Assembly: GCA_903918885.1 (NCBI GenBank)
Contig: CAIXFY010000056.1
Location: forward strand, 1-47,047
Source of the DNA: an uncultured Verrucomicrobia subdivision 3 bacterium
GTDB taxonomy: Bacteria > Verrucomicrobiota > Verrucomicrobiia > Limisphaerales > UBA11358
Reading direction: 5' to 3'
DNA length: 47,047 nt
Positions 1 through 20,647 of this stretch are shown in pieces. The notes beneath the pieces are model-generated. The model was not told where the DNA came from, did no database searches, and worked only from the letters and a program-made list of their open reading frames with translations. How positions within the stretch are numbered: position 1 is the stretch's first letter; the number at the start of each line of letters is the position of its first letter. A program made the position numbers and the translations under genes.

Positions 1-637
1 CCACCGGCAATTTTTTGATTTTCAACTCGCGCTTCAATTCACCAATCAGCCCCCGAATCAACCCACGATAGCCATGCACAGCGCCGACGAGCATCGCGTG
101 TTCGGTGCTTTTGCCGATGGCGGAGTTGATTTCGCGAATTTTAATTCTCGGCAGCAGCGCCGTTCTTTCGTGCAAGTAATCCGTCATCGCCGCCAGCCCC
201 GGCGCGATGATACCGCCGACGTAATTGCCCTTTGCGTTCACCACATCAAACGTGACCGCCGTGCCAAAATCCACCACCACCACCGGCGCGCCAAAACTGT
301 TTTTTGCCGCCACCGCGTTCGCCAAACGATCCGGTCCGATTGAATTCGGCTTCGGATAATCAATGCCCACCCCACGAATCGTGGATGGATTCAATTCGAG
401 CGCATTAACTTTCCAAGCGGTGCGAACAAATTTCTTCACCAACGGCGTGGCGCGTGGCACCACGCTGCACAAAATAGCACCGGTAATTTTCTCTTTGCCC
501 GTAAATTTCTTTACCAGCGCCGCCGCGCCGCCGCCAAACCACGTCAGCGTCGAGATGTCGGTTTGTTTCAACACGCGTTTGCCATCGGCAAGGCCTAGGT
601 GCGTGTGCGTGTTGCCGATGTCGAAGAGTAAAATCAT
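1..637 (-). CDS. coaX: Type III pantothenate kinase (partial, carboxyl end cut by window edge)
   Basis: Phosphorylates pantothenate, the first step of coenzyme A synthesis, in the cytoplasm. The reading frame starts with ATG at 637 and stays open to base 1, giving about 212 residues of a protein usually near 250. It shows the ASKHA-type phosphate motif DIGNTHTH at residues 6-13, IGPDRLANA in the middle, the DFGTAVTFD nucleotide/substrate motif, and GGIIAPGL. The start overlaps the birA stop by four bases (ATGA), so it is translated as the third gene of the nadC-birA-coaX cofactor operon. In several bacteria birA and coaX are neighbours in the same way. Nothing is odd apart from the truncation. 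Confidence 0.93.
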   Translation of the reverse strand, partial: MILLFDIGNTHTHLGLADGKRVLKQTDISTLTWFGGGAAALVKKFTGKEKITGAILCSVVPRATPLVKKFVRTAWKVNALELNPSTIRGVGIDYPKPNSIGPDRLANAVAAKNSFGAPVVVVDFGTAVTFDVVNAKGNYVGGIIAPGLAAMTDYLHERTALLPRIKIREINSAIGKSTEHAMLVGAVHGYRGLIRGLIGELKRELKIKKLPV

Positions 638-1611
638 TTTTCCAAAGTGACGTCGCCGCCGATGATACGTTCCAGATGACCGTGTTCCGTGCGGACGAGC
701 AGCGCGCCGTCATCATCCAACGCTTCCGCACAGCCGCGAATCTGCCGCGAACCCATCTGCACCGAAACATTTTTTCCGATGGTCAAACAACCGGTTTCCC
801 ATTCGTCCGCCACCTGCGCGAACTTGCCGCTGCAAATCCGCGCGTAATCAAAATCCAATTGCCGCAAAATTTCGGTCGCGAGTTCCGCGCGGCAAATTTC
901 TTCGCCCGCTTCGGCCTTCAGCGATGTGGCAATCTTGCGCAACTCCGGCGGAAATTCGTTCGCGTCCTGATTCACATCCACGCCGATGCCGAGGATGACG
1001 TGCCGCACGCGATCCACTTCTGCGCTCATCTCGGTCAATATGCCGACAACTTTTTTTCCATCGATGAGCAAATCGTTCGGCCATTTGATTTCGGCAGAAA
1101 TTCCCGCAACATTTTTTATCGCGCGGCGCAACGCCGTGGCGGAAGCAACGGTCAGCTGCGTTGTTTCCTGCGGCGTCAATTCCGGTCGTAGCAAAATCGA
1201 AAACCAAAGTCCTTTATGCGTCGGCGACAACCATTTTCTTCCGAGCCGCCCGCGACCTTTCGTTTGTGATTCGGCAAAAACCACCACACCTTCCTTCACA
1301 CCATCACGCGCGAGTTTTTCAATGACGTCGTTGGTGGAAGTCGTTTCTTCAAACACACGAATGTCGCGCCCGATGACTTTGGTTTTGCCCAACCGCGCCA
1401 GCAAATCATCCGCGTGCAGTGCGTCCGGCGAACTGACAAGGCGATAACCAAAATGCGGGCCAGCCTCGATTTCATAACCAGCCTGACGCAATTCCTCGAT
1501 GCGCGACCAAATCGCCGCTCGGCTGATGGCAAGTTGCTCCGCCAATTGCGCGCCGGAAACGCCCTCGGGATTGGCGCGCAACGCAGAAAGAATTGTGGCG
1601 TCCGTGGTCAT
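634..1611 (-). CDS. birA: Biotin--protein ligase with DNA-binding domain (BirA)
   Basis: Activates biotin to biotinyl-AMP and transfers it to the carboxylase carrier protein. The amino-terminal winged helix can make it a biotin-responsive repressor. Residues 1-60 form the helix-turn-helix (SGAQLAEQLAISRAAIW). The catalytic domain shows TTSTND, the biotinyl-AMP loop GRGRLGR near 120 and KWPNDLL near 178. The carboxyl-terminal SH3-like domain follows from about 275. The length of 325 aa is typical of bifunctional BirA. The start (ATG at 1611) overlaps the nadC stop by four bases and its stop overlaps coaX in the same way. No biotin synthesis genes or operator are visible in the window, so a regulatory role is only inferred from the domain. 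Confidence 0.95.
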   Translation of the reverse strand: MTTDATILSALRANPEGVSGAQLAEQLAISRAAIWSRIEELRQAGYEIEAGPHFGYRLVSSPDALHADDLLARLGKTKVIGRDIRVFEETTSTNDVIEKLARDGVKEGVVVFAESQTKGRGRLGRKWLSPTHKGLWFSILLRPELTPQETTQLTVASATALRRAIKNVAGISAEIKWPNDLLIDGKKVVGILTEMSAEVDRVRHVILGIGVDVNQDANEFPPELRKIATSLKAEAGEEICRAELATEILRQLDFDYARICSGKFAQVADEWETGCLTIGKNVSVQMGSRQIRGCAEALDDDGALLVRTEHGHLERIIGGDVTLEK

Positions 1612-2456
1612 TCAAAATCCAAACCGATGTCCACCGCGCGAGCCGAGTGCGTAATCGCGCCAACGGAAATAAAATCCACGCCGGTCGAGGCAATGGCGCG
1701 AACGGTTTTCAAATTCACGCCGCCGCTGGCTTCTGTTTTTGCGTGACCACACACAATTTTCACGGCTTGGCGCAACTGCGTGGTCGTCATGTTATCGAGC
1801 AGAATGATGTCGGCGCCCGCATCGGCAGCTTGGGCGACTTGCGTCAGCGTGTCCGCTTCCACTTCCACTTTCAATTTCGGAAATTTTTTACGCGCGCGCA
1901 AAATGGCGGCAGCAACGGCGTTCGGCTTTTCGTTCCGCAAGGCAACGAGATGATTGTCCTTGATCAAAATCAGGTCAAACAAACCGATGCGATGATTTTT
2001 GCCGCCGCCGCACTTAACCGCGTATTTTTCAAATCGCCGCCAGCCGGGCGTGGTCTTGCGCGTGTCGAGAATCTTCGCGCGAAAGCCTTTGATTTCATTA
2101 GCAAATGTTGCCGTAGCCGTGGCCACACCGGAAAGCCGCTGAACAAAATTTAGCGCCACGCGTTCGGCGCTCAAAATTGCGCGGCTGGAACCGGAAATTT
2201 TCAGCAGTGTTTTCCCAGCGGCAACTTTCTGGCCGTCGCGCGCCAGTTTTTGAATTTTGATCTGCGGGGACAATTCGCGAAAGGCGATTTCGGCAAATTG
2301 AATTCCTGCAGCCGTGAGCGGTTCGCGGGCGCGCATGAGCGCGACGGATCTTGCGGTGGCAGGAACGGTGGCGAGAGTGGTCGCGTCGCCGCTGCCAAGA
2401 TCTTCGGCAAGCGCGGCGCGGACGGCCCGACGGATTTCAGCAGCGGTGAGTTCCAC
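1608..2456 (-). CDS. nadC: Nicotinate-nucleotide pyrophosphorylase (quinolinate phosphoribosyltransferase)
   Basis: Converts quinolinate and PRPP to nicotinate mononucleotide, CO2 and PPi in de novo NAD synthesis. Diagnostic segments are EDLGSGDATT near the amino end, TRKTTPGWR, the KCGGGKNHR substrate loop, LIKDNH and LLDNM. The length of 282 aa is standard. The start appears to be GTG at 2456, which yields the expected amino end MELTAAEIRRAVR; no strong Shine-Dalgarno sequence precedes it. It is the first gene of a three-gene cofactor operon (NAD, biotin attachment, CoA) with ATGA overlaps. The gap of 45 bases to the upstream small protein on the same strand leaves open whether it is co-transcribed with the signalling cluster. 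Confidence 0.94.
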   Translation of the reverse strand: MELTAAEIRRAVRAALAEDLGSGDATTLATVPATARSVALMRAREPLTAAGIQFAEIAFRELSPQIKIQKLARDGQKVAAGKTLLKISGSSRAILSAERVALNFVQRLSGVATATATFANEIKGFRAKILDTRKTTPGWRRFEKYAVKCGGGKNHRIGLFDLILIKDNHLVALRNEKPNAVAAAILRARKKFPKLKVEVEADTLTQVAQAADAGADIILLDNMTTTQLRQAVKIVCGHAKTEASGGVNLKTVRAIASTGVDFISVGAITHSARAVDIGLDFE

Positions 2457-2501: not shown

Positions 2502-2849
2502 CTACTTGAGTTTGCCTTCCGCAAATTCGGCCGACAGGAGGTCGAGGTTTTTCTCCGCCTCGGTGTCCGGGGCGACAAGGAGCATGAGCAGCCACCGGTC
2601 GCTTCGCGGAACATAGCGGAGTCGTCCATATTCAAATGCCCAAGTGCTCCAGCGCGGCGCCAGTTCTGCGGCGGCCAGAGGTTCGTGCAGGCCGGGAAAA
2701 TTGTTGAGCAATTCCTCGATTTTTTCGATGGGATAGAATTTTTCGTCACCGAAGCCACCGCATTTTCCGTTGGGACGGCGGACGCCGCAGGCGAGCAGGC
2801 CGGGAATGGCCGGCAGATTGGCAAACCAGTCTTTGAAATTATCCTTCAT
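2502..2849 (-). CDS. Small Roadblock/LC7-like protein (hypothetical)
   Basis: A 115-residue cytoplasmic protein without signal or membrane segment. Its pattern resembles a stand-alone Roadblock/LC7 domain: amphipathic helix (FKDWFANLPAIPG), first strand LLACGVRRPNGKCG, a long helix around 40-55, then two strands (TWAFEYGRLRYVPR and WLLMLLVAP) and a final helix. This is a fold-level guess from the pattern, not a family match. It overlaps the upstream response-regulator-like gene by 11 bases, so the two are almost certainly translationally coupled. That neighbour also appears to end in a Roadblock-like domain, so a hetero-oligomer is plausible. Function unknown. Confidence 0.7.
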   Translation of the reverse strand: MKDNFKDWFANLPAIPGLLACGVRRPNGKCGGFGDEKFYPIEKIEELLNNFPGLHEPLAAAELAPRWSTWAFEYGRLRYVPRSDRWLLMLLVAPDTEAEKNLDLLSAEFAEGKLK

Positions 2850-3879
2850 GTTTTTCTTCGGGATTAGTCATGCGGACAAAAATCAGCCGGTCGGCGCGCG
2901 GTTGCAGAACGGCGCGGCCATCGGCCAGCTCAATTTCCACCCGATCCATTTTTCCCAACTGGAGCTGGGGAATTAACTGCTCGGCGCGTTGAGCTACTGC
3001 CTGCAACAGCGTCACGCGCGCGGCGGCATCGGCGCATTGCCAACTGTAAAAAATTTCACCGGCGGCGGAACAGATAAGTAGCTCCGCCGCTTTGCCGCCC
3101 GGCGCTGCGACAAGCGTTTCTTCAATACCGGAAACCGGATGGCCGGCGGCGGCGCGCGCCTTGAGCAAATCCTGTTCACGCGCGGCCTCATTGAGTAGAA
3201 ATTCCCAAGTGCGGTTGACAGTGCGCTCGGAAGGCGGCTCGAAGTCGTGCAGTTCAAACGTGCCAAAATCCAATGTGAGCAGTTTTTGAAAAGCGCGCTC
3301 GCCGGAAAATTCGCCGCAGATGGCGTGGATGATCTGGCCGTTTTCGACATAAATCCGGCCGAGCGATTGCTCGCGGAAAAGTTCGAGCACCGAAGAATTG
3401 CGCGCCAGACATTCCATCTGGATGAGATCAACCAGGCCGACGCTGCGCGCACCAACTGGCGAATCCGGCGGCGGCGCCCAATTGACCAGTTCGCTCACGC
3501 TGATGAAGACGGCTTTCAATCCCTCGGGCGAAACCGGTTTTTCAAAAAACAAATTAGCGCCCGCCGCCAGACTCGCGGCGCGGTTTTCGGCCGTGGCCTG
3601 AGCAGCCATGACCACGGTTTTGAATTGAGCCGGATCCTGACTGAAGCTGCCGAGCAAGAGCGAAACATCTAGCGTCGGTGAATTGACCGCGACGACGACC
3701 AATTTAATTTTGTTGGCCTTGATGGCCTCCAATGCTGCCGCCGCGCCCAGTGCCGGATAAATCTTCCAACGGTTGTCGCTCAGCGCCCGAAAAGAATTTC
3801 CCAGCATCGCCAAATCATCGTGGTCGTCATCCACGATCAGGACGCGCAGCTCGGGCTCAATTTGATTTTCGGTGGCCAT
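2839..3879 (-). CDS. Pseudo-receiver / PATAN (DUF4388) / Roadblock-like signalling protein
   Basis: A 346-residue cytoplasmic protein. Residues 11-125 look like a response-regulator receiver: hydrophobic strand LRVLIV, acidic cluster D17-D19, and the conserved lysine in FFEKP (K114). The phosphoacceptor aspartate is missing: the strand reads LVVVAVNSP, with Ala64 where DxNMP-type receivers have Asp, and the usual Thr/Ser is Ala as well. Residues about 145-245 match the PATAN/DUF4388 pattern (LVDLIQMECLARNSSVLEL, GRIYVENGQIIHA, GERAFQKLL). Residues 250-338 resemble a Roadblock domain ending in VEIELADGRAVLQPR. It lies 6 bases from the HEAT-repeat gene upstream and overlaps the small protein downstream. 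It is probably an unphosphorylated adaptor. Confidence 0.82.
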   Translation of the reverse strand: MATENQIEPELRVLIVDDDHDDLAMLGNSFRALSDNRWKIYPALGAAAALEAIKANKIKLVVVAVNSPTLDVSLLLGSFSQDPAQFKTVVMAAQATAENRAASLAAGANLFFEKPVSPEGLKAVFISVSELVNWAPPPDSPVGARSVGLVDLIQMECLARNSSVLELFREQSLGRIYVENGQIIHAICGEFSGERAFQKLLTLDFGTFELHDFEPPSERTVNRTWEFLLNEAAREQDLLKARAAAGHPVSGIEETLVAAPGGKAAELLICSAAGEIFYSWQCADAAARVTLLQAVAQRAEQLIPQLQLGKMDRVEIELADGRAVLQPRADRLIFVRMTNPEEKHEG

Positions 3880-3885
3880 TAAAAA

Positions 3886-5253
3886 TTAATTCAAAGCCGC
3901 CAAGGCGGCGTGGGCTGCTTGTTGCACTGCCGGGTCGGCATCGCGCGCGGCGGCGGCGAGCACGGACACGGCGTTGCGGTCGCGCAACCGTCCGAGCGCT
4001 TCGGCGGCAGCCAGCCGCAAATCGCAATCGCGATCAAACAACAAATCCGTGAGGAACGGCAGCGCCATATGCGGCGGGGCAGCTTCGGCATCATCCGTAG
4101 CCGATGCTTTCAATTCCTCAACCAGACTGGAAACATCGATTTTCAATTCTTCCAACAGCAGCCGCGCGCTGTAACGCACCCAATAGTCCGGGTGATTCAA
4201 GGCCATTTGGATTTCGGGCAAGGCGTCGCGTGCCTGCGCGGAGCGCTCCCAATCCTTGTCCAGTTTGCGCGCAACGGTCTGGGCAAGATTACGCACCGTC
4301 CGTTCCACATCCATCAGCGCGCCGATGACCGCAACCAGCGCCCGCTGGTCGTGCAATTGTCCCAGCGCGGACAACACCGCTTCCCGCACATCATGATCCG
4401 GATCCTTGACCAGCTCGCACAGATTCGGCACGGCGGATTTCTGGCCAAGCGCACCCAAAGCCTTCGCCGCGGCGCGGCGGACATCCCAAAAAGTATCCTG
4501 CAAACAGCCAGTCAAAACCGCCACAGCGCGTTTGCCGCCGGTGCGGGCAGCCGTATCCACCGCCACGACGCGCACGCTGGCAACCGGATCCTTCAGCAGT
4601 TTTTCCACTTCGGAATAAGTCGTCGGATCGGCGATGCGTTCCAGATTGTCGAGCGCAGCGATGCGCACGGCGGGGCTTTCCTTTTGCAACGCCTCGAGCA
4701 TGGCGCGCGTCAGGCGTGGGTCCTTCATCTGGCCAAGCGTCTTCACGGCGGCGAGCTGCTTATTGGGCGGACCGAAGCGCATGAGTTCCAAAAGCGGTTC
4801 CACCGCCTCGGGCCCGACGGTCAGCAGCATCTGTAAATTGCCGAGGGCGAGGAGCTGCTGGATTTTTTGCGAGTCCGTCGCCGGCTGCCAGCCAAGTCGG
4901 CTCAAACTGCGCGCGGCGACGGCGCGAACAATCTGATCCTGATCCCGCAGCAACGGAAAAATCCGGTCAATCGCCAGCGGATCGCCAAGTTTTCCAAGCG
5001 ATTCCAAAGCCGCCACGCGCGCCAGCGGCACGGTGTCCTTCAGCATCTCAATCAACGGCACGGCCGCGCGCCGGTCTTGAAACGCCACCAGCATTTTGGC
5101 GGCGGCGCACCGGACGTCCGCATCCTGGTCCTTCAAAGTTTTGATGAGCACGCCGACGGATTTCGGGTCACCCTCGTTCGCGAGTTTTTCCAGCACCGCC
5201 AGCCGAGTTTTCGGGTCGCGGGCGCGCAGTTTTTGATAGGTCCACCAAAGCAT
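3886..5253 (-). CDS. HEAT-repeat (PBS lyase-type) scaffold protein
   Basis: A 455-residue protein built almost entirely of about 14 short HEAT repeats of roughly 31 residues, each with the pattern D..VR.aAa.aLg.lgd..avp.L...L.D. Clear examples are DQDADVRCAAAKMLV, DPVASVRVVAVDTAA and DPDHDVREAVLSALG. The amino end (MLWWTYQKLRARDPKTR) lacks a convincing signal peptide, so a cytoplasmic location is assumed. Such solenoids serve as protein-binding scaffolds; the partner cannot be read from sequence. It is the promoter-proximal gene of the cluster with the pseudo-receiver/PATAN protein (6-base gap) and the Roadblock-like protein, so those two are the obvious candidate partners. A 234-base divergent intergenic region separates it from transaldolase. 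Confidence 0.85.
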   Translation of the reverse strand: MLWWTYQKLRARDPKTRLAVLEKLANEGDPKSVGVLIKTLKDQDADVRCAAAKMLVAFQDRRAAVPLIEMLKDTVPLARVAALESLGKLGDPLAIDRIFPLLRDQDQIVRAVAARSLSRLGWQPATDSQKIQQLLALGNLQMLLTVGPEAVEPLLELMRFGPPNKQLAAVKTLGQMKDPRLTRAMLEALQKESPAVRIAALDNLERIADPTTYSEVEKLLKDPVASVRVVAVDTAARTGGKRAVAVLTGCLQDTFWDVRRAAAKALGALGQKSAVPNLCELVKDPDHDVREAVLSALGQLHDQRALVAVIGALMDVERTVRNLAQTVARKLDKDWERSAQARDALPEIQMALNHPDYWVRYSARLLLEELKIDVSSLVEELKASATDDAEAAPPHMALPFLTDLLFDRDCDLRLAAAEALGRLRDRNAVSVLAAAARDADPAVQQAAHAALAALN

Positions 5254-8471: not shown

Positions 8472-9469
8472 ACCGTCACCTCTTTGTGGAGCGTATCTTT
8501 CCAGTTGATGTTGCCAAGGCCGCGTTCCTGCGCTTTGTGGAGATAAGTCAGCTCGGTGAGGTCGCGTTCGAGCAGATGCGAATAGCCGTAGGCGTCCACG
8601 GAAATCATGTCCGTGCCGGCGACGATGGTGTTCATCGGCTTCACATCGGACAGGCGGCCGCCGGTCGGACCGTTGCTCATCAGCACGTTCATGCCGTCAA
8701 GGATGACCAGCGTCGGTTTCATCATCAGTGCGAAATCGGAAACGATGCTGTGGATGTGCTGGTGAAACTGATTTCGCCGGCCGCCGAGCAGGCCATACCA
8801 GTTTTTCGTCGTCATTGAGGCGTGGCAAAGATTGTGATCTTTGCACGGCGCGAGGCCGATGACCTTATTCGCCTTTTTGAACGGCGTGTTGAAGAAAGTC
8901 CATTCCTTCAACACCTCGCCGTCGAGTGACAACGGCGCAAAGGAATTGGTTTCCGGATACATCAAATCCAGATTCATCTCCGCCGCCACGGCGGTGAGAC
9001 CGCTCTTGAAAAAACAACCGGTCGGCGAATTGATCGGATTATCGGCGACGATGACTTTGCTCGCGCCGGCCTCGAAACACAATTTTGCCACCGCGCGCAA
9101 GGCGTCGGGATGCGTCGTGGCCGCGAGCGCCGGCGGACGGTCGAACGCGACGTTCGGCTTGATCATCACCACGTCGCCGCGCTGGATGAAGCGTTCCATA
9201 CCGCCGAGCAAACCCATTGCCGCGCGGATGGTTTTCTCGTGCTCCGTGCCGTGCGCGATGGCGAGCGACGGCATGACTTTGCTGACTTCCGGCGCGTAGC
9301 TTTTGAGTTGCAGCCCTTTTTCCTTTTCAAAACCGGGAACGAAATGGTTCGGCGTCCAAAGTTTTTTGGCCGCGAGGCCGGAACCGGCGATGAGTGCGCC
9401 GGTGATGCCGAGGCGCACGAGAAATTCGCGCCGGTTCACGCCGGATTCATTTTGATTGGGTGCGCTCAT
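8468..9469 (-). CDS. Tat-exported DUF362 protein
   Basis: A 333-residue protein with a twin-arginine signal (VNRREFLVRLG, then a hydrophobic stretch to about 35) and a DUF362 domain from about 68 to 315. Family features seen are VVMIKPNVAFD, the phosphate-binding-like SKVIVADNP segment, NLCHASMTTKNWYGLLGG and a late VAGTDMISVDAYG. DUF362 has no settled biochemical role, and many members carry ferredoxin domains or lie next to ferredoxins. This one has few cysteines of its own but is translationally coupled (ATGA) to the NapH-like gene, so it may be the redox partner or substrate enzyme of that module. Confidence 0.85.
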   Translation of the reverse strand: MSAPNQNESGVNRREFLVRLGITGALIAGSGLAAKKLWTPNHFVPGFEKEKGLQLKSYAPEVSKVMPSLAIAHGTEHEKTIRAAMGLLGGMERFIQRGDVVMIKPNVAFDRPPALAATTHPDALRAVAKLCFEAGASKVIVADNPINSPTGCFFKSGLTAVAAEMNLDLMYPETNSFAPLSLDGEVLKEWTFFNTPFKKANKVIGLAPCKDHNLCHASMTTKNWYGLLGGRRNQFHQHIHSIVSDFALMMKPTLVILDGMNVLMSNGPTGGRLSDVKPMNTIVAGTDMISVDAYGYSHLLERDLTELTYLHKAQERGLGNINWKDTLHKEVTV

Positions 9470-9490
9470 AATTTCAGTTAGTCAACCTAC

Positions 9491-10663
9491 TCACTTAATC
9501 TCCCCACGCAAATACTTTTCGATAAACGCCCGGGCCTGGTCGCCGTCATCCGCATCGAACGCGCCGCCGAGTTCGCCGTTGCGCTGATAGACGACTTTCC
9601 ATTTGCCGAACACTTGCGCGCGGAAAATTTTTGCACCACTCACATCTGGCAGGTTTTCCACCGTGCCGAATTTGCCGCAGAAATCCGAAAACGATTGCCA
9701 TGCCTTCGCGGCTTCATCCGCCGAGGCGACCATGATGAAAAACGGGATTTCCGCGCCGTCAAATTTGTATTTCGCTTGGAAGACATCTTTCAGCGATGAC
9801 TGACCTTGGGCGTTTTCCGGCACGTAAGCGACGCTGTCCGCAATCATGCCATCCGCCGGCAATTTCTTTCGGCCGGCAAGCCCCTTGTCATCCGCTGGCA
9901 AATCTTTCGCACGGATGTCGGCGATGCTTTTGGCCTTGGCGAGCGTTTCCGGCTTGGTGTCGGAGGCGATGATCTGCACGTAAACCGCGCCTTGCCGGTA
10001 AAAATATCCCATGTCGGCGGCGTAACCGTCGGCGACGATTTCGAGCGGTTTCCCCTTCGGATCGCGTTCCAGCGCGAACATGCCGAACGCATCCACCGGA
10101 TTGTCGAAGCGATATTCGTAAACATCCACATAGCTGCCGGGTGCGGCGTTGACGGAGAACGAGCGGCAGCGGAGCGCCACCACGTTAAAACTTTGGTAAG
10201 CCGGCGCGCGGCCGTCAATTTTTTCGTAGAGGCTGTCGGCGGTGTAAAATTCCGTGTCGCCCATCGGCTTGATGCCGATCAGGGAAATCTCCATCGGCTC
10301 GCCTTTCGCCGCCGGCTTGGGCGCGTCGTTTGAACCTTCCGCTCCGGCATCGGGGGCCGGTTCGTCCGCGCCGGCGGTTTTTTCGGCAGTCGCTTTTGGC
10401 GCTTCGGCGGAAACCGTTTTCGTTTCCGACGCCGACAACGCGGTGCCACCCTTGCCCTCGACGGCGTTGACGGTGGATTTCAGCGCGTCGTTGCGGACGG
10501 AGTAGAGATTCGGGTCGAAGACTTTTCCCTTGTGCCAGACGGCAATCCCGATGCCGGCAATTAAAACGAGAATGACCGCGCTGGAAACGCTTTCCGCCAC
10601 CGGCACGCGGGTGCGCACGAATTGCTTGCGGCCGCCGCCGACGTATTTTTTTTCAGTGGCCAT
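9491..10663 (-). CDS. Membrane-anchored periplasmic protein, DUF6599-like
   Basis: About 390 residues. A single transmembrane anchor near residues 22-42 (ESVSSAVILVLIAGIGIAVW) is followed by a low-complexity Ala/Glu/Pro linker to about 130. A globular domain follows with the pattern of DUF6599 (FYTADSLYEKIDGRA, VYEYRFDNPVDAFGMFALER, a second half with PFFIMVASADEA). ATG at 10663 is preferred to an upstream TTG at 10684. It begins the minus-strand group that continues with DUF362 (21-base gap), NapH-like and NapG-like. The topology puts the domain in the periplasm, where the two Tat-exported proteins also act. Function unknown; the family name is from memory of the pattern. Confidence 0.72.
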   Translation of the reverse strand: MATEKKYVGGGRKQFVRTRVPVAESVSSAVILVLIAGIGIAVWHKGKVFDPNLYSVRNDALKSTVNAVEGKGGTALSASETKTVSAEAPKATAEKTAGADEPAPDAGAEGSNDAPKPAAKGEPMEISLIGIKPMGDTEFYTADSLYEKIDGRAPAYQSFNVVALRCRSFSVNAAPGSYVDVYEYRFDNPVDAFGMFALERDPKGKPLEIVADGYAADMGYFYRQGAVYVQIIASDTKPETLAKAKSIADIRAKDLPADDKGLAGRKKLPADGMIADSVAYVPENAQGQSSLKDVFQAKYKFDGAEIPFFIMVASADEAAKAWQSFSDFCGKFGTVENLPDVSGAKIFRAQVFGKWKVVYQRNGELGGAFDADDGDQARAFIEKYLRGEIK

Positions 10664-13959: not shown

Positions 13960-15048
13960 TCAGCCCACAATGCGACCACCTTCGTTGAGGAAGATTCCTT
14001 TAAAATTCATCTCCAGCGCCTGCGGATTGGTTGCCTTGGCCATCGCTTCCTTCTCGGTCACCCGGCCAGCCTTTACCAAGTTGAAGAGCGACTGGTTGAA
14101 GGTCAGCATGCCGTCGTCACTGCCGGTTTCAATTGCCGCCGTCAATTTGTCCAGCCGGTTTTCCTCCAGCATCTTTTTGATCAACGGCGAATTAATCATG
14201 ATTTCCAACGCCGGCGTCATCTTCCCGTCCACCGTCGGCACCATGCGCTGGCAAATCACGCCGCGCAACGTGCCGGCGAGCTGACGGCGCACCTGCTCGC
14301 GTTCATCCGCCTTGAAAAAATCCAGAATGCGCGTGATGGACTGCGCCGCCGTGGTCGTGTGCAGCGTGGACAAAACCAGATGCCCCGTGTCCGCCGCGCT
14401 CATCGCCGCGCCGAAACTGATGTCGTCGCGCATTTCGCCGAGCATGATGATGTCCGGGTCCTGCCGCAAAACGTGTTTGAGCGCGTGATGAAACGAACTT
14501 GTATCCAAACCGACCTCGCGTTGCTCAATCACCGACTGGTTGTCTTCGAACACAAATTCAATCGGGTCTTCCAGCGTGATGATGTGCTTTTTAAAATTGG
14601 CGTTAATGTGTTCGATCATTGCCGCGAGCGTCGTAGACTTACCGGAACCGGTCGATCCGGCCACCAGCACGATGCCGCGCGGTGATTCCGCGATGGACTT
14701 GATCTGCTCCAGCAGGCCGAGTTCCTCGAAGCTCGCGACGTGGCTTTTCACATGGCGCATCGCCAGCGCCCACTGGCCGCGCTGCTGAAAAAGATTCGTG
14801 CGGAACCGCCCGACTTCCGGCGCGTAATACGAAAAATCAACTTCGCGATCCTCTTCCAGTTTTTTCTTCAAATGCACCGGCGTGATGGTTTCCACAACTT
14901 TATTCATCCAGTCCGCAGTCGGATGCGGACATTCGACAGCAACTAGTTCGCGGCTGATGCGAAAAATAACGGGCGTCCCAATTTTGATATGAATGTCCGA
15001 AGCGCCGCCTTCTACGGCAATCTTGAGAATTTTTTTGAAGAGTTCCAT
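13960..15048 (-). CDS. pilT: Type IV pilus retraction ATPase PilT/PilU
   Basis: A 362-residue hexameric secretion-superfamily ATPase that powers pilus retraction (twitching). Visible motifs are Walker A GSTGSGKST near 130, the Asp box IITLEDPIEF, Walker B IIMLGEMRD, the His box HLVLSTLHTTTA, and GTLRGVICQRM. The length matches PilT (about 345-370). The usual PilT retraction motif AIRNLIRE is not obvious at the carboxyl end, so PilU or a gliding-related paralogue is possible. No other pilus gene is in the window. It is divergent from mtnP with 111 bases between them. Confidence 0.92.
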   Translation of the reverse strand: MELFKKILKIAVEGGASDIHIKIGTPVIFRISRELVAVECPHPTADWMNKVVETITPVHLKKKLEEDREVDFSYYAPEVGRFRTNLFQQRGQWALAMRHVKSHVASFEELGLLEQIKSIAESPRGIVLVAGSTGSGKSTTLAAMIEHINANFKKHIITLEDPIEFVFEDNQSVIEQREVGLDTSSFHHALKHVLRQDPDIIMLGEMRDDISFGAAMSAADTGHLVLSTLHTTTAAQSITRILDFFKADEREQVRRQLAGTLRGVICQRMVPTVDGKMTPALEIMINSPLIKKMLEENRLDKLTAAIETGSDDGMLTFNQSLFNLVKAGRVTEKEAMAKATNPQALEMNFKGIFLNEGGRIVG

Positions 15049-18784: not shown

Positions 18785-19846
18785 ATGAAAACCCGGGTTA
18801 TAGCGGTATGCTTGTGCTTGGTTGCCCTTGTTCTGCTTCTGCGGCCATACCTTGCCCGGAAATGGAGCGCTTTCGACACGAACCGCATGTTTCGTGGCGA
18901 GCCCGTTTACAATGGCAAGCCGCTCCATGAATGGGCGATTCAAACTGAAAATGGTGACTATGTCACCGGCGGTCCTTCGGCGGGCGCCATCGAAGCGGCC
19001 AGAGCCATCCAAGCCATCGGGCCGAAAGCTGTTCCATGGCTCATCAAATGGATGGAATCACCGGTGAGTGATTATCGGACGTCCGGAGCGGTCTATGCTT
19101 TTAAGGCTTTAGGTTCGGACGGAAAACCAGCCATTCCGGAGTTAGCAAAAATCTTGAATAATAAAGATGCCATGGATGATTATAGCTCTTGGCACAATGC
19201 CGCCGAAGCGATCTCTTATTTAGGCCCAGAAGCCATTCCGGCGATGCTCACCGCAGCAACAAATCTTTCAGGGCGGCATATCCGATGGGAGCTAATTGAA
19301 AATCTCGGCAACATGGAGACTAACGGCATTTCTGCAATACCTGCATTAATTGGATGGACGCAAGACAAGGATGAGTGGGTAAGATTAGGTGCGGTCAATG
19401 CTCTGGGCCGAATCGGAATGGAACCAGCACGGGTCATTCCTGTGCTCGTCAAGGCACTGAGGGATGCAGACCCCTTGGTTCGACGCGATGCGGCGAGTGC
19501 TTTGGGAAATTACGGCAAAGAAGCAAAAGATGCCGTGCCGGACTTAATCAAGGTGCTGGATGATGCCGATTGGCAGACACAGACCGGCGCGATTGAAGGG
19601 CTGGGTTGGATTGGCGAACAACGGGAAGTAGTCATACCGTTGATTATTAAGAAACTGCATTCCAATAACGGAATTGTCCGACGGGTCTCGGGTTTTGCCT
19701 TGGGCGAACTGGGTGGAAAGGAGGCTTTTGACGCTTTGATGCAAGCGACGGATGACCCCGATGGGTTTGTGCGCGAAGCAGTCTTTCATTCGTTAACTAA
19801 AATTGACCCCAATGCATTGGAGAAATCTGGGAAAAAATTCTACTGA
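18785..19846 (+). CDS. Membrane-anchored HEAT-repeat protein (accessory)
   Basis: 353 residues. An amino-terminal hydrophobic segment (VIAVCLCLVALVLLLRPYLA, residues 5-24) acts as anchor or signal. A short linker (NGKPLHEWA) leads to about eight HEAT/PBS-lyase repeats from 50 to the end. Clear repeats include DKDEWVRLGAVNALG, DADPLVRRDAASALG, DADWQTQTGAIEGLG and DPDGFVREAVFHSL. The repeats would lie outside the cytoplasm. Base composition is visibly AT-richer than purC or alkD, and the gene sits between two recombination scars, so recent acquisition is likely. Function unknown. Confidence 0.82.
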   Translation: MKTRVIAVCLCLVALVLLLRPYLARKWSAFDTNRMFRGEPVYNGKPLHEWAIQTENGDYVTGGPSAGAIEAARAIQAIGPKAVPWLIKWMESPVSDYRTSGAVYAFKALGSDGKPAIPELAKILNNKDAMDDYSSWHNAAEAISYLGPEAIPAMLTAATNLSGRHIRWELIENLGNMETNGISAIPALIGWTQDKDEWVRLGAVNALGRIGMEPARVIPVLVKALRDADPLVRRDAASALGNYGKEAKDAVPDLIKVLDDADWQTQTGAIEGLGWIGEQREVVIPLIIKKLHSNNGIVRRVSGFALGELGGKEAFDALMQATDDPDGFVREAVFHSLTKIDPNALEKSGKKFY

Positions 19847-19924
19847 TTCAGAGTCCTCTCGTGACTTGCCGACTATCTGCTGGCGCAGCTTTTCACCTTG
19901 GCGGCATTTCTTTATGGTTTTCGA

Positions 19925-20647
19925 ATGCGTCCCACTAAAATCTCGTTAACAATTTTGCGTTCGCGATTGCAAACCCTCGCCTCGCCAGCCGCGGCGAAGG
20001 TCGCGCAAGGATTTTTCAAAACCGCGCCGGGTGAATATGGCGCGGGCGATACGTTCATCGGCATCCGCGTGCCGGTCTTGCGCACGCTGGCCAAGGAATT
20101 TCGCGCGTTGCCGTTGCCGGAGGTGTCGGCGTTGCTACATTCGCCCATCCACGAGGAACGACTGCTGGCGTTGATGATCCTGGTGGACGGCTATGCGCGG
20201 GCCGATGCCGCCGGTCGCGCCAAAATCTACGCGCTCTATCTGGAACATCTCGACCGCGTGAATAACTGGGATCTGGTGGATACCTCCGCGCCTTACATCG
20301 TCGGGCCGCATCTGGCGGAACGGTCGCGGGAGATTTTGTTCCGGCTGGCGCGGGCGAAAAATCTCTGGCATCGCCGCGTGGCCATGCTCGCGACATTTCA
20401 TTTCATCCGCCAAAACGATTTCGCCGACGCGCTGCGTCTCGCGGAACTTCTGCGCGATGATGAACATGATCTGATGCACAAAGCCGTCGGCTGGATGCTC
20501 CGCGAGATCGGCAAGCGGGACGCGCCGGTGCTGAAGAAATTTCTCCAGCAACACGCCGCACGGATGCCGCGCACGATGTTGCGCTATGCGATTGAAAAAC
20601 TATCGGAAGGCGAGCGGCAGCGGTATCTTCGCATGGGTAAGATTTAA
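19925..20647 (+). CDS. DNA alkylation repair protein, AlkD-like HEAT-fold glycosylase
   Basis: 240 residues from ATG 19925; an upstream in-frame codon at 19898 adds nothing conserved. AlkD-family proteins excise alkylated purines using a HEAT-like superhelix. Family features are YGAGDTFIGIRVPVLR near 40, the HEERLLALMILV helix, VNNWDLVDTSAPYIVG (the conserved NxWDxVD), WHRRVAMLATFHFIR, HDLMHKAVGWMLREIGKRD and MPRTMLRYAIEKL. The conserved Trp and Asp of the active cleft are both present. It directly precedes a 51-base relic of the xerC start, suggesting alkD-xerC was the original gene order. Confidence 0.9.
   Translation: MRPTKISLTILRSRLQTLASPAAAKVAQGFFKTAPGEYGAGDTFIGIRVPVLRTLAKEFRALPLPEVSALLHSPIHEERLLALMILVDGYARADAAGRAKIYALYLEHLDRVNNWDLVDTSAPYIVGPHLAERSREILFRLARAKNLWHRRVAMLATFHFIRQNDFADALRLAELLRDDEHDLMHKAVGWMLREIGKRDAPVLKKFLQQHAARMPRTMLRYAIEKLSEGERQRYLRMGKI

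Follow-up and report, generated by a model that had tools for sequence, protein, structure and literature searches.

A conserved HEAT, receiver-PATAN and Roadblock-fold gene trio in Limisphaerales as a candidate adaptor of the MglA/MglB switch

The window analyzed here, a stretch of 47,047 nucleotides of contig CAIXFY010000056.1 (assembly GCA_903918885.1) from an uncultured Verrucomicrobia subdivision 3 bacterium, belongs to a genome of 2.46 Mb in 85 contigs that is 91% complete. It carries three adjacent genes for a HEAT-repeat protein, a receiver-PATAN protein with a third domain that we call X (REC-PATAN-X), and a small protein, Y (Table 1). We confirmed the tight packing of these genes reported in an earlier note on this DNA, with a 6-base gap between the HEAT and REC-PATAN-X genes and an 11-base overlap between the latter and Y, while nadC starts 45 bases past Y and is followed by birA. 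The HEAT protein is identified as such by Pfam (HEAT_2 over its cut-off), and the middle protein is a PATAN protein based on its DUF4388 score of 52.6 bits against a cut-off of 25, DUF4388 being what we take to be the PATAN domain. Further along the window, positions 18785-19846 (+) seem, by eye, to encode another HEAT-like protein, followed at 19898-20647 by one that resembles a DNA-alkylation-repair HEAT protein, likewise by eye.

Table 1. Positions of the trio, its domains and its downstream neighbors in the window.
Feature	Position	Strand	Basis
birA, conserved downstream neighbor	634..1611	-	Pfam BPL_LplA_LipB
nadC, downstream neighbor kept in the window's clade	1608..2456	-	Pfam QRPTase_C 1.8e-56; same order in the closest loci
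Y, free-standing protein of predicted Roadblock fold, 115 aa	2502..2849	-	AF2, Foldseek, VIA-align
Overlap of REC-PATAN-X and Y genes, 11 bases	2839..2849	-	
REC-PATAN(DUF4388)-X protein, 346 aa	2839..3879	-	Pfam and structure model
Domain X, about residues 262-339	2863..3096	-	Strand order in model; adjacency to and fusion with Y; profile match to HEAT-X-Y
PATAN (DUF4388) domain, about residues 140-244	3148..3462	-	Pfam DUF4388 6.1e-14, residues 147-237
Degenerate receiver domain, residues 11-131	3487..3849	-	Response_reg 2.1e-9, above cut-off; acceptor and Thr/Ser residues lost
Ala64 codon at the phospho-acceptor position	3688..3690	-	Asp in 30/31 aligned relatives
HEAT-repeat scaffold protein, 455 aa	3886..5253	-	Pfam HEAT_2 E 1.6e-60, 201.8 bits, above cut-off

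The receiver of the window protein retains Asp17/Asp18 and Lys114, with Ala64 replacing the acceptor Asp and Ala92 replacing Thr/Ser, and thus does not qualify as a phosphorylatable response regulator (acceptor Asp, Thr/Ser and Lys). The label pseudo-receiver given to it in the earlier note is therefore correct for this protein, though not for most of its relatives, since Ala at the acceptor position is shared only with L089 while the other 30 of 31 aligned relatives have Asp; Thr or Ser occupies position 92 in 29 of these 31, and Lys114 is present in all of them. In one close relative (G040) the receiver is absent altogether and PATAN-X directly follows the HEAT protein. A tree of the HEAT proteins groups the window with G036, G040 and G030 (support 100/99), while the grouping with G043 is less well supported (87/77). 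G030, which has an intact receiver, is nested among decayed members, which points to several separate losses, and the sequences suggest that decay or deletion of the receiver was repeated among very close relatives (the window, G036, G040 and G043). As far as the sequence comparison goes, the pseudo-receiver is a recent local state and not a trait of the family.

Protein Y matched no Pfam or NCBIfam family above its cut-off, Robl_LC7 included, and a PDB profile search with its sequence returned nothing usable. On the other hand, its AF2 model (36 aligned sequences; pLDDT 90.4, pTM 0.84) follows, over the whole chain, the order H-EE-H-EEE-H, i.e., that of a Roadblock (alpha-beta2-alpha-beta3-alpha). 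A Foldseek search with this model placed Myxococcus xanthus MglB on top (3.3e-5), followed by Asgard Roadblocks, Ragulator subunits and others, and VIA-align likewise retrieved Roadblocks over the whole chain from Z 12.8 downwards (9jue_B, Z 12.8, rmsd 2.9 over 112). By its predicted fold, Y is a Roadblock. In profile comparison, Y matched the C-terminal Roadblock of R571, a 571-aa protein of the same genome whose own Robl_LC7 match falls just below the Pfam cut-off, with E 1.8e-4 over 96 columns, which weakened to 0.0087 with larger alignments. The Pfam Roadblock model is known to miss some members of the family (PMC4316618). Y as an MglB orthologue was considered and rejected, as its match to the MglB profile was not significant and the genome has a separate MglB-like protein.

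Domain X has no Pfam or NCBIfam assignment. In the model of the REC-PATAN-X protein (32 sequences; mean pLDDT 85.8), whose pTM of 0.49 leaves the placement of the domains unsure, X has the order EE-H-EEE, resembling the beta2-alpha-beta3 core of a Roadblock without the terminal helices. By hhalign, the X profile matched the HEAT-X-Y fusion protein (E 4e-22) and none of the profiles of Y, MglB and R571 at a significant level, a weak negative, since MglB and R571 also missed each other. A whole-chain Foldseek search with REC-PATAN-X was uninformative on X, the top 50 containing receiver-bearing structures, and a joint X-Y alignment (A5) for predicting the fused structure was dropped because MAFFT aligned X with the N-terminal half of Y. 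Considering the strand order in the model and the constant link to Y, we infer that X is a Roadblock-like half. The earlier note had proposed a Roadblock for both domains, and this is borne out for Y by predicted fold (pLDDT 90, with Roadblocks as top PDB matches), while for X it derives from strand order and the link to Y.

A neighborhood search for the same trio, suggested in the earlier note, found it kept in dozens of genomes, and most of the named relatives are MAGs labeled Verrucomicrobia subdivision 3, Limisphaerales or Pedosphaera. Among 76 named loci, 64 passed the REC-PATAN filter, the 12 dropped ones being mere receiver matches or weaker. X is present in 38 of the 64, and in these Y lies beside X without exception (38/38) and HEAT nearly always (35/38), the gaps being L103 (a contig edge with a HEAT fragment present), L116 and L150. 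In the REC-PATAN loci without X, Y was found once in 26 (L133, where the frame of X is split). A further 20 loci gave Y with X in 20 and HEAT in 19; several of these seem to duplicate named loci, as their contigs are equally long (e.g., L183 and L132, L189 and L122, L191 and L106, L201 and L125). The proteins are fused in three ways, namely HEAT-X-Y (L067, from the source genome itself, L069-L071, L180, L181, L188), REC-PATAN-X-Y (L132, L178, L182-L186) and HEAT-REC-PATAN (L109, L118), the rate of which is not to be read as a frequency, since the further loci were hand-chosen, 12 because their open frames were long or unusual. This co-occurrence and the three fusion types support that HEAT, REC-PATAN-X and Y form one unit, as the earlier note had claimed. 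With dN/dS against the nearest relative of 0.15 for HEAT, 0.24 for REC-PATAN-X and 0.23 for Y, and with gene order and protein sequence kept in dozens of genomes, the trio is more than a chance arrangement. A second PATAN family without X and without an adjoining Y was also observed in many loci (L123-L146), its only Pfam-scanned member being an FHA-receiver-PATAN protein (L124:5563-6891).

The operons of distant relatives are wider. A receiver-HDOD protein lies between HEAT and REC-PATAN-X in L115, L110 and L122 by Pfam, and also in L178, L185, L189 and L194. Downstream of Y, 8 of the 38 loci (L108, L111, L112, L115, L116, L119, L121, L125) encode a protein of 216-242 aa with an invariant His, which in the three proteins scanned reached no Pfam family above cut-off and had a weak similarity to HisKA (0.0035-0.17, under cut-off). 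This HisKA-like protein is reminiscent of ChpT and might have a similar role. The presence of both genes in distant operons makes it likely, judging from gene content, that phospho-input to the trio is ancestral.

No GTPase was found on the contig of the window; the genome has five matches to the Arf profile, all of them on other contigs. One of these contigs (C20) encodes a REC-PATAN paralogue, R571, MglA, an MglB-like Roadblock (Robl_LC7 2.8e-10) and a PilT-like ATPase, MglA being named from its Arf-profile match, the P-loop visible in its sequence and its position before the MglB-like gene. The statement in the earlier note that GTPase, kinase and output enzyme are lacking thus stands for the GTPase on the contig and fails for the genome, in which MglA, the MglB-like protein, R571 and a PATAN regulator are found together on C20. 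In the window's own genome the trio is not linked to mglA/mglB, which are on a separate contig. In G340 (L198, 3576-10051), R571, MglA, MglB, HEAT, REC-PATAN-X and Y follow in a row on one strand, and in L150/L199 (Centralia_MAG_180) the genes for PATAN-X, Y, R571, MglA and MglB overlap or abut; physical linkage of trio and MglA was seen in these two genomes only. Two side observations concern these clusters. The PilT-like ATPase beside MglB on C20 (L068:8852-10118) appears to be split over the overlapping frames 8852-9133 and 8937-10118, perhaps through a frameshift, either genuine or introduced during assembly. The MglA operon of L150 opens with a 742-aa protein (L150:4432-6660) that combines a lectin-like N-terminus (Laminin_G_3) with PATAN-X and, judged by eye, probably a membrane segment, and that might possibly be a surface-sensing input to the MglA switch.

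Co-occurrence with MglA, which the earlier note had put forward as a check for the trio, was seen for Y across the order. A search of 288 genomes of the phylum with the close-family Y profile matched the source genome alone, and the order-wide search used a broader profile (A6) in its place. Among 196 genomes of the order, MglA is present in 96 and Y in at least 57 (39 of 107 genera), which may be an undercount because at most 23 candidates per genome were scored among the matches listed. Also among the matches listed, MglA occurs in 53 of 57 genomes with Y and in 43 of 139 without (the two together in 53 genomes, Y alone in 4, MglA alone in 43 and neither of them in 96; Fisher 2e-16). The same tally, compiled from the genome lists, is 37/2/24/44 by genus (p 3e-10) and 26/1/17/18 by family (p 5e-5; the family total of 62 was read from label numbers). 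The co-occurrence test corrects for phylogeny only in part, and it draws on incomplete MAGs. Within the genus of the window, MglA is found in 38 of 49 genomes and the link is not significant (20 of 23 genomes with the trio versus 18 of 26 others, p 0.18), the trio set being defined by Y at E 4e-6 or better, with G025 excluded (3.7e-5, a fragment). Five genomes have Y and neither an MglA nor a Robl_LC7 match, i.e., G040 (94% complete), G448 (92%), G018 (91%), G043 (75%) and G363 (80%). The four order-wide genomes with Y and without MglA are G040, G448 and G363, which have no Robl_LC7 match, and G444, which does and may merely be an incomplete genome.

Based on the fold of Y, the pairing of X and Y, the status of the trio as one unit, the order-wide co-occurrence of Y and MglA, the gene run in G340 and the MglA cluster with its REC-PATAN paralogue in the source genome, we consider it fairly probable that this trio works as a Roadblock adaptor coupled to a receiver and serves the MglA/MglB Ras-like switch. 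The weak link within the genus, the trio-bearing genomes without MglA or Robl_LC7, the lack of profile similarity between X and Y and the finding of only two physical linkages count against this reading. An alternative is a pilus regulator of the PATAN type, in which the direct targets of the trio would be ATPases of type IV pili or related secretion systems (PilB/PilT), with X/Y as a dimerizing module and MglA dispensable. Matches to T2SSE-family ATPases number 10-13 in each of the seven genomes searched, including the MglA-less G040, G043 and G018, and the cyanobacterial PATAN regulator PixE binds PilB1 (PMC7690835, in excerpt). However, genes so plentiful in all seven genomes say little by their presence. 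The window does encode a PilT-like T2SSE ATPase (13960-15048, -) about 9 kb from the trio, which speaks for the pilus reading. As to the co-occurrence with pilT that the earlier note had also raised, none of the 25 loci profiled with the PilT model has a match beside the trio, which speaks against it. As direct action on the pilus also leaves the co-occurrence of Y with MglA and the gene run in G340 unexplained, we regard it as unlikely.

The same MglA-less genomes, the absence of a GTPase from the contig of the window and the decay or loss of the receiver in its subclade would also be expected of a self-standing scaffold-adaptor with its own client and no part in an MglA circuit, the description chosen in the earlier note. 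As a general rule this description is contradicted by the MglA cluster in the same genome, by the order-wide association with MglA, by the two physical linkages, among them the gene run of G340, and by the kinase-like (HisKA-like) and receiver-HDOD genes in the operons of relatives; we find it improbable for the family, and it might apply to those few lineages that lack MglA. A functional link of the trio with NAD or biotin metabolism was suggested by the order trio-nadC(-birA) in the window's clade, but nadC is missing beside the trio in distant loci (e.g., L104-L108, L110-L112, L115, L119), which makes this neighborhood a local one. The link was rejected as highly implausible, and nadC is probably merely co-transcribed with the trio.

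If the trio does serve as an adaptor of the MglA/MglB switch, X and Y would pair as a Roadblock heterodimer that docks on MglA or MglB, much as MglC stands between RomR and MglB, and the HEAT protein would keep the complex together or determine its place within the cell. For most relatives, the receiver would be phosphorylated by the HisKA-like protein or another kinase, and phosphorylation might alter the way in which PATAN-X/Y faces the MglA switch or the ATPases of type IV pili. As the receiver of the window lacks the usual acceptor Asp, the adaptor of this organism would act constitutively or by binding alone. Going further, we tentatively raise, as a possibility that is rather doubtful, that a receiver-PATAN protein and a tiny free protein provide the obligate halves of a Roadblock heterodimer on a HEAT scaffold and constitute a new class of adaptor, which began as an input to MglA and outlived MglA/MglB in several lineages, some losing phospho-control, where it now has another client. 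Detailed knowledge of MglA/MglB polarity switches comes chiefly from Myxococcus, and here a phylum with little-studied motility carries a consistently linked and testable input module of novel composition. Should X-Y prove to be an obligate Roadblock heterodimer tied to a receiver, two-component signals would reach a bacterial Ras-like GTPase without RomR. The repeated decay of the receiver among close relatives provides natural variants in which function independent of phosphorylation can be tested.

Among the matches listed from the open-licence papers searched, we found no description of the trio, and none of these papers brings HEAT repeats, a Roadblock and a response regulator together. 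PATAN genes near mglA/mglB have been published before (Wuichet and Soegaard-Andersen 2014, citing Makarova 2006; PMC4316618), and a trio that includes HEAT and an X-Y pair is not named in the excerpt of that paper. The actinobacterial conservons (CvnA-D) also join a histidine kinase, an MglB-type Roadblock and an MglA-type GTPase in one unit, but they differ in gene set and phylum, PATAN and HEAT being absent from the four conservon proteins named in the same excerpt (PMC4316618). REC-PATAN-X is similar to the cyanobacterial PatA, PixE, PixG and LsiR in combining a receiver with PATAN, the pilus ATPase PilB1 being the proposed target of PixE (PMC7690835). In the trio, however, the order is receiver, PATAN and X, whereas PATAN is N-terminal in PatA (PMC4316618), and a constant Roadblock partner and a HEAT protein are added. 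The receiver of the window resembles that of FrzS from M. xanthus, which lacks the phosphorylation residues and works by binding in pilus control (PMC11580455), although the output of FrzS is a coiled-coil, with no PATAN or Roadblock named in the excerpt. A close parallel to the proposed adaptor role is the RomR-MglC-MglB complex of M. xanthus (PMC12719032), where, together with MglA, a receiver protein, a non-GAP Roadblock, the Roadblock GAP MglB and the GTPase are united in one circuit (PMC12719032; PMC9481161). Compared with that module, with RomR taken by its description as a receiver protein with a Pro-rich linker and a C-terminal helix that binds MglC, the profile comparison does not make Y an orthologue of MglB, and the receiver protein of the trio carries PATAN and a Roadblock-like X of its own and is joined by a HEAT protein.
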